Below, one piece after another: positions 759-45,688 of a stretch of DNA of 61,577 nucleotides. The translations under genes were made by a program, and so were the position numbers. Where the stretch lies: assembly GCA_002789915.1 (NCBI GenBank), contig PFUD01000159.1, forward strand, positions 789-62,365, written 5' to 3'. Position 1 is the stretch's first letter. Every line of letters starts with the position of its first letter. The notes under the pieces were generated by a model. That model was not told the DNA's origin. It ran no database searches and was given only the letters and a program-made list of their open reading frames with translations. Source of the DNA: Comamonadaceae bacterium CG_4_9_14_3_um_filter_60_33. Lineage in GTDB: Bacteria > Pseudomonadota > Gammaproteobacteria > Burkholderiales > Burkholderiaceae_C.

Positions 759-1662
759 AAGCGCACAGCGAAGCAAGCCAGTGGCCAAGTTAGCAACCAA
801 ACCCGTGGCCAAGGCGCCGCCGACGCTGGCCGACGACATTCGCCCCGGCCAGTCCATCGAATTGCTCAAGGAGCTGCACATCCTGACGCGCGACGGCAAG
901 CTCAACCAGGACTCGCGGCGCAAGCTCAAGCAGGTGTACCACCTCTACCAGTTCATTGAGAAACTGCTGCTGGAGCTGGGCGATCAGCCATCGGGCATCA
1001 CCCTTGCCGACCACGGCGCCGGCAAGTCATACCTGGGCTTCATTCTGTACGACCTGTTTTTCAAGCAACTGGCGCAAGGGCACATTTACGGCATCGAAAC
1101 GCGCCCGGAACTGGTGCTAAAGTCCCGCGAACTGGCGCAGCGGCTGGGCTTTGAGCGCATGTCGTTTCTGAACCTGACGGTGGCTGAGTCGGCGCAATCC
1201 GACCAGTTGCCCGCACGCATCGATGTGGTCACGGCGCTGCACGCCTGCGACACCGCCACCGACGACGCGATTGCCTTCGGCCTGCAAAAGCAGGCGCGCT
1301 TCATGGTGCTGGTGCCTTGCTGCCAGGCTGAAGTGGCGCGCGTGCTGAGCCAGCACAAGGCGTTGTCGCTGTCGCGCACGCCGTTGTCCGAGCTGTGGCG
1401 CCACCCCTTGCACACGCGCGAAATGGGCAGCCAGATTACCAACGTCCTGCGCTGCCTTTATCTGGAAGCCTGCGGCTACCAGGTCACGGTGACCGAGCTG
1501 GTGGGCTGGGAGCACAGCCTAAAAAACGAGCTCATCATCGCCCGCCATACTGGCCAGAAAAAGCGCGCAGCAGCCGAGCGCCTGCGCGCGCTGCTCGACG
1601 AATTTGGCCTGTCACCCCTGCTCGATACCCGCTTTAAACAATTGGGGTCAGATTCCAATTAA
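739..1662 (+). CDS. Class I SAM-dependent methyltransferase with IR-encoded C-terminus
   Basis: The start chosen is the ATG at 739, overlapping DUF1415 by 20 bp; the frame is open further upstream but inside that gene. The 307-residue product has a Lys/Ala-rich N-terminus, then a methyltransferase fold with the motif I-like LADHGAGKSYLGF, an acidic ETRPE loop, VVTALHACDTATDDA and a VPCCQAEV segment, as in the Methyltransf_32 type. The substrate is unknown. The last seven codons and the stop lie inside the left 27-bp inverted repeat of the downstream RAYT element, so the native C-terminus was probably replaced when the element arrived. Confidence 0.75.
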   Translation: MTHPKPESAQRSKPVAKLATKPVAKAPPTLADDIRPGQSIELLKELHILTRDGKLNQDSRRKLKQVYHLYQFIEKLLLELGDQPSGITLADHGAGKSYLGFILYDLFFKQLAQGHIYGIETRPELVLKSRELAQRLGFERMSFLNLTVAESAQSDQLPARIDVVTALHACDTATDDAIAFGLQKQARFMVLVPCCQAEVARVLSQHKALSLSRTPLSELWRHPLHTREMGSQITNVLRCLYLEACGYQVTVTELVGWEHSLKNELIIARHTGQKKRAAAERLRALLDEFGLSPLLDTRFKQLGSDSN

Positions 1663-1679: not shown

Positions 1680-2384
1680 ATGGCACGTCTTCCTCGTCTC
1701 ACTTTGCCCGGTTACCCGCACCATGTGATTCAGCGTGGCAACAACCGCCAAGCCATTTTTGCCACGGCCGCCGACTACCGCAGGCTGCTCGACCTGCTGG
1801 AAGAAAACGCCAAAAAATTCGACGTGGCGCTGCACGCCTATGTGCTGATGAGTAACCACTTCCACCTGCTTGCCACGCCGCAGACGGCAGATGGCTTGAC
1901 CAAAATGATGCAGGCCGTGGGCCGCAGCTATGTGCGCTATTTCAACGACACGCAAAAACGCAGCGGCACCTTGTGGGAGGGGCGCTTCAAGTCCACCCTG
2001 ATCCAGACCGACCGCTACCTGCTGGCCTGCATGGCCTACATCGACCTCAATCCGGTGCGGGGCGGTTTGGTGGCGCAGCCGCAAGACTACCCGTGGTCGA
2101 GCCATTTGCACTATCTGGGCGTGCGCCCGGACCGGTTGATCACGCCGCATGCATTGGTATGGGCGCTCGGCAACACGCCTTTTGCCCGCGAAGCCGCGTA
2201 CGCCGAATTGGTGCAGAGCGGCCTCAATTCGGTGCAGCAGGCTGCCATCACGCAGGCAACTTTGAGCGGCTGGGCCCTGGGTGAAGCCGATTTTGTGGCT
2301 GATTTGCAAAAGAAAACAGAGAGGCGCGTGGCCAAAGCGGGCGCTGGGCGGCCCTTTTCTGTCACCAAGCCAGCTCAAAAATAG
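1680..2384 (+). CDS. REP-associated tyrosine transposase (IS200-like, RAYT)
   Basis: The start at 1680 gives MARLPRLTLPGYPHHVIQRG, the canonical N-terminus of this family; an upstream ATG at 1665 lies in the inverted repeat. The 234-residue product has the HUH motif within MSNHFHLLATP and downstream tyrosines in SYVRYFNDTQ, followed by GTLWEGRFKSTLI and CMAYIDLNPVRGG. Enzymes of this type cleave and rejoin single-stranded REP hairpins and are thought to spread REP sequences. The reading frame is intact. Both flanking repeats are perfect, consistent with recent activity, though activity itself cannot be read from sequence. Confidence 0.9.
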   Translation: MARLPRLTLPGYPHHVIQRGNNRQAIFATAADYRRLLDLLEENAKKFDVALHAYVLMSNHFHLLATPQTADGLTKMMQAVGRSYVRYFNDTQKRSGTLWEGRFKSTLIQTDRYLLACMAYIDLNPVRGGLVAQPQDYPWSSHLHYLGVRPDRLITPHALVWALGNTPFAREAAYAELVQSGLNSVQQAAITQATLSGWALGEADFVADLQKKTERRVAKAGAGRPFSVTKPAQK

Positions 2385-2463: not shown

Positions 2464-2490
2464 AAAATTAATTGGAATCTGACCCCAATT
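2464..2490 (-). repeat. Right 27-bp inverted repeat (REP-like)
   Basis: A perfect reverse complement of 1640-1666. It ends 8 bp before a candidate -35 box for gltB, so the element sits immediately against the gltB promoter. Confidence 0.85.
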
Positions 2491-42032: not shown

Positions 42033-43331
<1,299 letters not shown>

Positions 43332-43398: not shown

Positions 43399-43629
43399 AT
43401 GCAAGCAGAAGCAATTGTGTCGAGCAAAGGGCAGGTGACTTTACCCGCTGCCATGCGGGCCAAGCTGGGCATTGGCCCGGGTTCGCACATCCAGTTTGAG
43501 CTGCGCGGGCAGGAGTTGGTGATCAAGCCTGAACTGCCGATGAGTGCGTACCGCGGCCTACTCAAGAAATACAACTTGAACCCGGCCGATCTTGAAATCG
43601 AAAAAGAGCCTGATCGGGAGTTTGAATGA
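43399..43629 (+). CDS. AbrB/MazE-family antitoxin
   Basis: The ATG at 43399 gives 76 residues: MQAEAIVSSKGQVTLPAAMR, then IGPGSHIQFELRGQELVIKP, an AbrB-type DNA-binding fold with a short tail containing the sequence YRGLLKKYNLNPAD. It overlaps the PIN gene by 4 bp. The frame is open upstream but the extension overlaps the divergent tgt promoter region. Confidence 0.85.
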   Translation: MQAEAIVSSKGQVTLPAAMRAKLGIGPGSHIQFELRGQELVIKPELPMSAYRGLLKKYNLNPADLEIEKEPDREFE

Positions 43630-44000
43630 ACATTGTCGATTCGTCTGGCTGGCTTGAATATCTGCTCGATACCGACCGGGCGGACTTGTTTGCCGATGCT
43701 ATCGAGCAACGCGACTCTTTGCTAGTACCCGTGATAGCACTGTATGAAGTCCACCGAGTGCTCAGTCGCAAGGTGTCGCCCGACGCCGTGGCGGAGTGCC
43801 TGGACGTGATGCGGCTGGCGCGTGTGCTCGACATCACCGACCGCCGCGCAGTAGCTGCGGCCAACGTGGCCCAGCGCCACAAACTGGCCATGGCTGACGC
43901 CATGATGTACAGCCTGGCACTTGAACTCGGCGCCACCTTCTGGACGCAGGATGTGGATTACGAGGGATTGCCTGGGGTGAACTATTTCGCCAAGCCCTGA
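43626..44000 (+). CDS. PIN-domain toxin (VapC-like)
   Basis: A 124-residue PIN protein: MNIVDSSGWLEYLLDTDRAD (first Asp at 5), VPVIALYEVHRVLSR (Glu), KLAMADAMMYSLAL (Asp) and TFWTQDVDYEGLPGV (final acidic residues). The full catalytic set is visible, so the toxin should be active as a ribonuclease if expressed. It overlaps its antitoxin by 4 bp. Confidence 0.88.
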   Translation: MNIVDSSGWLEYLLDTDRADLFADAIEQRDSLLVPVIALYEVHRVLSRKVSPDAVAECLDVMRLARVLDITDRRAVAAANVAQRHKLAMADAMMYSLALELGATFWTQDVDYEGLPGVNYFAKP

Positions 44001-44087
44001 AGCGCCAGCAACATGAGAATTCGCAATGAGGGCTGGGTTGGTCCGTTCTAGGATGCTCGCTAACAATCAACCCTCAGAAGCATCATC

Positions 44088-44519
44088 ATGAAAAGTTCTT
44101 ACGCAAAAGTCTCTCTTGTTGCCATGTCGTTGACGCTGTGCAGCGGCGCTGTTCTTGCACAACAGCCCATGACCGACCAAGGCAAGCTGGAGTACGACAC
44201 CAATTGCGCGGTTTGTCATGGCCCGGGTGGCAAGGGAGATGGCTCACTCCAACCCTTGCTTCGAGTCAGTGCGACCGACCTGACCCAGTTGGCCAAAAAG
44301 AACCAGGGCATCTTGCCCGTGACCCGGATGTATGAGGTGATCGACGGCGCTGGCGTGCCCAGCCATGGCTCGCGCGACATGCCGATCTGGGGCAGAACGT
44401 ACCAGTCTGAAAATGCCCAGAACCTCTTGGAAGCGCGCGGCAATTACGACGCGCAGGCCTTGGTTCGGGCGCGCATTCTGGTGTTGATCGAATACATCAA
44501 CCGGCTGCAGGCCCGCTGA
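44088..44519 (+). CDS. Secreted class I cytochrome c
   Basis: The 143-residue protein has a signal peptide ending VLAQQ (cleavage near residue 24), a single haem motif CAVCH (Cys40, Cys43, His44) and a probable methionine ligand at Met98 in SRDMPIWG. It should be a periplasmic monohaem electron carrier. The partner is unknown. It converges on queA with only a 5-bp gap and no terminator. Confidence 0.88.
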   Translation: MKSSYAKVSLVAMSLTLCSGAVLAQQPMTDQGKLEYDTNCAVCHGPGGKGDGSLQPLLRVSATDLTQLAKKNQGILPVTRMYEVIDGAGVPSHGSRDMPIWGRTYQSENAQNLLEARGNYDAQALVRARILVLIEYINRLQAR

Positions 44520-44524
44520 GCTTT

Positions 44525-45688
44525 TCAGGTCGCTCTGCGTGCGCGGCTCAGCAGCATGGCGTCGCCATAGCTGAAAAAGCGATAGCGTTGTTCGATAGCG
44601 TGGGCATAAAGCGCCTTGATGTGCGCGTGGCCCGCAAAGGCGCTCACCAGCATCATCAGGCTCGACTTGGGCAGGTGGAAGTTGGTGATCAGCGCATCCA
44701 CCAGCTTGAACTCGAAACCAGGTGTGATGAAGATGCGGGTGTCCTTGGAAAACGGGGTCAGATCCCGAGAAGTGGGGGTCGGATCCGAATTACGTGTAGA
44801 TTTGGCTCTGCCCCCCATTTCTCTGACCCCATTTTCCTGCGCCCAGGATTCCAGCGTGCGCACTGTGGTGGTGCCCACCGCAATGATGCGTCCGCCACGC
44901 GCGTGGCAGTCGGCGATGGCCTGCTGGGTGACCACCGGCACTTCATACCATTCACTGTGCATCTGGTGCTCGGCCAGGTTTTCGGTCTTGACCGGCTGAA
45001 ACGTGCCCGCGCCCACATGCAGCGTGACGTGGGCGCGCTGCACGCCCAGGGCGTCGATCTGCGCGAGCAGGGCTTCATCAAAATGCAGCGCGGCGGTGGG
45101 CGCGGCCACAGCGCCGAGATTTTTGGCAAACACGGTTTGGTAGCGCTGGGCGTCTTCGGCTGAATCGGTGTGCGTGATGTAGGGTGGCAGCGGCACATGG
45201 CCGTGGCGCGCCATCAGCGTAAAGGGGTCGTCGCCCGCGTCGTTGGACAGCACAAAGCGAAACATCGGGCCCTCAGCGTCGGGCCAGCGCCCCAGCAGCG
45301 TGGCGCTCAAGTGGTCCGAATAGCCCGGCGCGCTGATGAGCGAGACGGTGTCGCCAATGGCCGGCTTTTTGCTCACGCGCAGGTGCGCTGCCACCTGATT
45401 GCCCCCGAGTACGCGCTCGATCAGCAACTCCAGTTTGCCACCAGTGGCCTTTTCGCCATACAGGCGCGCGTTCATCACCCGGGTGTCGTTGAACACCATC
45501 AGGTCGCCCGCCTTGAGCAGTGCGGGCAGGTCTTTGAAGCTGCGGTCAACCGGCGCTGCGCCGGTGCCGTCGAGCAGGCGCGAGCCACTTCGCTCGGGGG
45601 CAGGATGCTGGGCGATCAGTTCGGGAGGCAATTCAAAGTCAAAATCACTCAATCGAAAAGTACGGGGTGCGGCAGGCGTAATGGGCAT
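44525..45688 (-). CDS. queA: S-adenosylmethionine:tRNA ribosyltransferase-isomerase with in-frame insert
   Basis: The 387-residue enzyme has the family segments [50 protein letters not shown] and [20 protein letters not shown], and makes epoxyqueuosine from preQ1 tRNA. E. coli QueA has about 356 residues. The excess lies between LESWAQ and [10 protein letters not shown], where residues 287-312 are encoded by a REP-like sequence; this stretch ([19 protein letters not shown] and on) is unlike other QueA proteins. The insert keeps the frame, so the enzyme may still work. Operon with the folate cyclo-ligase upstream (5-bp gap). Confidence 0.93.
44754..44830. repeat. REP-like element inserted in frame in queA
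   Basis: GGGGTCAGA at 44754-44762 and TCTGACCCC at 44822-44830 are perfect inverted ends. A second internal copy, GGGGTCGGATCCGAATTACG at 44774-44791 and flank, matches the RAYT-flanking core GGGGTCAGATTCCAATTAAT at about 15 of 20 bases. The two copies can fold into nested hairpins, the BIME-like arrangement expected of sequences mobilised by a RAYT. Confidence 0.7.

Follow-up and report, generated by a model that had tools for sequence, protein, structure and literature searches.

Is the REP-like palindrome that is read through in queA a domesticated part of a tRNA-modification enzyme, or is it selfish DNA that the gene has tolerated? The palindrome lies in a window of 61,577 nucleotides (the whole stretch of DNA that was analysed), in which queA occupies positions 44525..45688 on the minus strand as an ORF of 387 residues, the insert included. 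An earlier, sequence-only reading had described at 44754..44830 a 77-bp sequence with GGGGTCAGA/TCTGACCCC ends and a second internal copy, translated as QueA residues 287-312. The REP-like palindrome was found exactly there on the minus strand, and the 387-residue ORF bears out its reading in frame as codons 287-312. It is a composite, in which one GGGGTCAGA...TCTGACCCC-type element is nested in another. A covariance model of short palindromes, derived from 40 elements that related genomes carry, matches the composite at 44750-44834 (E 1e-06) and confirms the internal copy, GGGGGCAGAGCC...GGATCCGACCCCC, at 44771..44819 on the minus strand (30.6 bits, E 7.2e-08). The left and right outer arms, at 44747..44762 and 44822..44837 on the plus strand, form an inverted pair of 16 nt each with 94% complementarity. 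Exact GGGGTCAGA occurs in four copies in the window, two in the queA element and two beside a gene for a REP-associated tyrosine transposase (RAYT), against 0.30 expected, and none of 100 shuffles reaches four; with one mismatch allowed, the excess in the window is weak (17 versus 10.9; 5 of 100 shuffles). The fold z-scores of the 93-nt queA stretch (-4.70 as DNA, -4.43 as RNA; none of 200 shuffles as stable) show the capacity for a long stem-loop that is characteristic of protein-coding palindromic elements, and its RNA fold reaches -43.7 kcal/mol. Stem covariation was considered as proof of an RNA function and rejected, because neither the pairs changed on both sides (6 versus 5.4; 231 of 500) nor the pair types (14 versus 12.0; 92 of 500) are raised. 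In the same stem alignment 92.8% of cells are paired, and double-change cells number 56 against 16.8 in shuffled alignments (0 of 500), a comparison in which relatedness is uncontrolled.

Comparison with relatives shows that the queA element is an insertion. Measured between its LE and DT boundary residues, which are conserved, the QueA loop has 35 residues in the window and 10 (SWALSGQPTG) in the nearest relative, L021, with which the window copy shares a starred branch (100/96) and 86% identity over 352 columns. The net gain of 25 residues agrees with the roughly 26 extra residues proposed earlier. Of 28 other loci of the genus, 14 have a short loop of 9-10 residues, while in the other 14 it measures 15-36. 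Eighty named relatives were also taken, with 73 loops readable by pattern and seven not; 39 of the 73 have 10 residues and the longest has 21. Aligning relatives over residues 287-312, as the sequence-only reading had advised, thus finds them without this insert. The same loop carries a clear REP in L007, a decayed one in L008 and fragments in the DNA of L014 and L020. When the loop is left out of the tree, parsimony counts at least eight changes between long and short states (29 genus rows plus the outgroup row L035, with nine forks unresolved). Taken together, these traces and length changes mean that the loop was invaded, and shortened, more than once. The genus is probably Rhodoferax, as the QueA of Rhodoferax lacus (L036) groups with its rows (94/75, a branch without a star). 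A long loop may also arise in another way, since L035, from another family of the order, has 31 residues and L010 has 30, both without the motif.

The gene that carries the insert looks intact and constrained. QueA, a member of Pfam PF02547, scores above the cut-offs of two curated families (NF001140, 443.5 bits, cut-off 324; TIGR00113, 401.5 bits, cut-off 267.45), and the invariant positions are retained in the window copy. Outside the loop, comparison with L021 gives dN 0.078 and dS 0.655, and therefore dN/dS near 0.12. QueA is single-copy, with one match at E <= 0.001 in a draft genome of 196 contigs that is 91.86% complete; the other genomes of the genus are mostly drafts too. The protein with its insert would most likely be translated and active. 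An AlphaFold2 model (36 sequences; pTM 0.88, mean pLDDT 88.6) places the insert in a low-confidence predicted loop, flanked by a conserved helix that ends at about residue 291 and by a strand formed by 313-316; pLDDT drops below 50 at residues 291-297 and 303-307. The placement between conserved elements, claimed earlier for two strands, is upheld for a helix and a strand, and the model predicts a loop there. A whole-fold comparison gives four matches at E <= 0.001, all of them QueA structures, with a TM-score of about 0.5 (by the model's length) and an rmsd of 9-11, so that this comparison says little about the loop. The interval between tgt (42033-43283) and queA holds, at 43399-44519 of the window, a cytochrome c gene as well as a pair of genes of the MazE/AbrB-like and PIN-domain types.

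The queA insert is one of many. The paired pattern GGGGNCRGA-N15-45-TCYGACCCC gives 111 forward matches, distributed over 25 of 40 genomes of the genus, and its backwards control pattern is found in none of the 40. Eighty-seven merged elements were examined, two of which (L002 and L007) came from other searches and the rest from among the matches listed. Thirty-eight of the 87 are spanned by ORFs that run for 150 residues or more without a stop; eight of these 38 (L121, L126, L165, L167, L171, L194, L198 and L199) were dropped as intergenic or N-terminal. The remaining thirty were judged to be intragenic and read in frame, in conserved genes that belong to 12 families, and the other 57 were not counted as intragenic. 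The families, assigned by scan for representatives and by blastp clusters for the rest, are lipB (7 elements), polA, purL and an MmeI-type methylase (4 each), AMP nucleosidase (3), queA (2), and uvrA, icmF, hrpA, a cusA-type RND gene, gspE and valS (1 each). One flank of the MmeI-type methylase copies has a poor codon-use score. Dispersed copies, in frame and intergenic, are thus present as in protein-coding palindromic elements, and homologues free of the insert, a further mark of such elements, were found for QueA, LipB, PolA and ValS. Among the 87 elements no frame-breaking copy was found when codon scores were used to seek coding flanks without a through frame; the two candidates, L118 and L182, proved on reading to be intergenic, between two genes. 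Translational bypass of the element or its excision from the mRNA, considered because of the hairpin, was rejected since no copy needing either was found. Of 23 hand-picked inserts, 16 are read in the open frame that is the most hydrophilic, against 7.7 expected (p 5e-05), where two rows have a single open frame and several rows share a gene, so that not all are independent. In the genome of the window, at least uvrA, icmF, purL, lipB and hrpA also carry in-frame elements. The queA insert had been called the most unusual item in the window; a unique domestication event was rejected, given the many other in-frame copies. Of 20 regions followed in the same genome, 18 are taken up by another relative, 47-51 nt long and with an end like GACCCGCAAG, and intragenic placement was flagged for none of these 18. 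Beyond the genus, the pattern occurs in 20 of 200 genomes of the family, two of those 20 being from the genus itself. In L320, L325, L328, L329 and L331, which belong to other genera of this family, palindromes with GGGGTCAGA also lie within long open frames.

Palindromes of this kind are reportedly known from Rickettsia, as the Rickettsia palindromic elements (RPE) of Ogata et al. in 2000. In the accessible text on them, RPE and Wolbachia palindromic elements resemble the present ones as dispersed palindromes translated in frame in unrelated housekeeping proteins, and RPE inserts occupy solvent-exposed places; in QueA the insert falls in a predicted loop of low pLDDT. A Rickettsia guanylate kinase bearing an insert of this sort was active, its affinity for substrate being altered (PMC2229807). 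RPEs are, however, about 100-150 bp long according to the accessible text, whereas the elements here mostly measure 38-82 bp, have GGGGTCAGA ends and belong to a betaproteobacterial genus; the likeness drawn here is one of kind. A second comparison is offered by the GTAG and CGTC REPs, which in the available parts of the source lie within ORFs, often of excinuclease genes (uvrA), DNA polymerase I (polA) and tRNA synthetases, and whose intragenic insertions in loops or linkers are argued there to be neutral (PMC3733652). Membership in either super-family was rejected, since the unpaired end tag of neither is present in the 40 aligned elements, which instead have AATT/AAAT-like ends beside GGGGTC. 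The available parts of that paper also describe transposases flanked by GGGGWSAS repeats (TIRtrons / TIRYT; PMC3733652). These come close to the present case, because GGGGTCAG fits GGGGWSAS and flanks a RAYT-type gene in the window; in the 40-element alignment columns 5-8, 10 and 12-15 are invariant and the GGGGWSAS end is found. The TIRtron repeats, unlike the queA insert, are presented in those parts of the paper beside transposases and as dispersed families, and not as translated inserts (PMC3733652). In open-licence papers no translated repeats of the GGGGTCAGA type, or in this genus, were found, nor was a paper on Rhodoferax, Comamonadaceae or QueA with palindromes. The queA element is therefore a protein-coding REP, a kind familiar from the work on Rickettsia, here in a new host group and of a repeat type that those papers did not show as translated. 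The genus thereby provides a second rich, seemingly free-living system besides Rickettsia with mobile palindromes in conserved proteins. Its many sequenced species and cultured members make it possible to trace on trees how old the inserts are, which sites they prefer, how they are oriented and how well they are tolerated, and to test this in cultivable relatives and E. coli. The targets overlap those of the earlier papers (QueA, UvrA, DNA polymerase I and tRNA synthetases), so why the same proteins tolerate inserts becomes testable.

The RAYT gene of the window lies at 1680..2384 on the plus strand. It scores 81.1 bits against NF047646 (cut-off 80) and E 3.6e-12 against PF01797, both over 1692-2381, and an HFH motif is visible in its translation. 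The element that contains it ends on the left with AATTGGGGTCAGATTCCAATT (1640..1660) and on the right with AATTGGAATCTGACCCCAATT (2470..2490), both on the plus strand. The kinship of the queA insert to these repeats 42 kb away is less firm than proposed earlier: it is shown by the common 9-nt GGGGTCAGA tag, and with the covariance model of short palindromes the RAYT ends score no better than E 0.19-0.55. From this tag, a link between the queA element and the RAYT gene is plausible. Two elements of 61 nt (G000:C48:617-677 and G000:C178:8440-8500) have the same long ends as the RAYT element, and the second is in frame in purL. The RAYT may possibly be the mobiliser of these 61-nt relatives.

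How, then, did the palindrome come to be part of QueA? Very probably it is a tolerated selfish mobile palindrome, inserted in frame into a gene that would have kept working. A small GGGGTCAGA...TCTGACCCC-type mobile element would have entered a surface loop of QueA, between the end of the helix at about residue 291 and the start of the strand at 313, presumably transposed by a RAYT-type enzyme. Because the length of the element and its open frame kept queA readable, the ribosome would translate it as about 25 extra residues forming a flexible loop, and QueA with this loop most likely still works. The pattern across the genus is what selection acting on selfish DNA would leave behind: genic copies that keep the frame, occupy loops or linkers and for the most part are translated in a hydrophilic frame. 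Such loops would go on changing through further insertions, deletions and perhaps inversions. Against this explanation, the RNA hairpin could slow translation, and loop length also varies without a visible REP, as in L035 and L010. The hairpin might even do harm. In that case the insertion, by its mRNA structure or by disturbing the fold, would be turning queA into a pseudogene, and REPs elsewhere do act as RNA structures, according to the available parts of PMC3733652. Such damage is very unlikely, however, for a gene with an open frame, low dN/dS against its sister and retained invariant positions, which is moreover the only genomic copy. That the palindrome was created by misassembly of a metagenome-derived draft would fit a source genome in 196 contigs; its probability is practically negligible, as L007, from an independent genome, has a similar in-frame element at the same QueA loop, and others lie in different genes of many genomes, including the one-contig genome G010.

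The sequence-only reading had favoured domestication. If the element was co-opted, the loop encoded by the REP would have gained a QueA function, such as tRNA contact, partner binding or stability, and its peptide would be under selection. That QueA loops are long at 14 of the 28 further genus loci could speak for such a role. So could the Rickettsia proteins, since the accessible text of PMC3767692 lists tRNA ribosyltransferase-isomerase (QueA) with RPE-4 in R. japonica and RPE-7 in R. felis, which means that one protein was hit in two distant groups. However, the sister L021 does without the insert, the long and short states interchange repeatedly on the partly unresolved loop-free tree, and the model has low pLDDT in the loop. 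The loop peptides vary between species in sequence and length, their residues are unrelated, and no sign of peptide conservation was seen among the compared relatives. Co-option is therefore improbable, and tolerated selfish DNA is most likely the better fit.

Tolerance as selfish DNA leaves room for a bolder and rather doubtful idea, that the palindromes of the genus are frame-preserving, invertible linker cassettes which steadily reshape the loops of essential proteins. Both arms read GSDP-like turns in one frame in either orientation, so that an element could be flipped in place, duplicated, nested or shortened and the protein would stay whole. In queA and in lipB the inserts are found repeatedly at a single loop, in lipB in both orientations. 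On the LipB tree (29 of 30 fetched sequences placed, L236 dropped; 8 of 26 inner branches starred), six rows have the element in one orientation, seven in the other, six have something else and ten have short loops, with at least nine changes among the first orientation, the second orientation and the short-loop state. As a part of the same doubtful idea, an in-place flip could have turned FRFAA into AAQRN in LipB. L243 and L246, which share a lipB clade of four rows (100/99), align better with a 58-nt stretch inverted (score 93.5 versus 71); L253 of this clade keeps the right arm alone. The difference between L243 and L246 may also be an independent insertion in the opposite direction.

In PolA, the linker that joins the exonuclease part to the polymerase part holds the inserts. 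The linker of UvrA could be read in 9 of 30 loci and is variable also without a REP, for example in L202 and L205, and residues 8-13 of the partial UvrA frame of L141 hold a second LGSDPN motif near the start, perhaps another REP trace. Other repeat-like peptides (DRHGLRPRDDE..SLRAQRGNPLS; VIPGLTRDPW) appear in L277, L278 and L284 of polA and in L251 of lipB, and these loops may contain more repeat families that are translated at those sites. In ValS, GSD...GSDP is found in 2 of 30 loci, at a loop that reads like DCGLNEHTPAECAT in others. A 102-nt direct repeat, 88% identical between its copies, occurs twice in the valS region of L312 (629-730 and 1055-1156), where the copies give similar peptides at two ValS loops.
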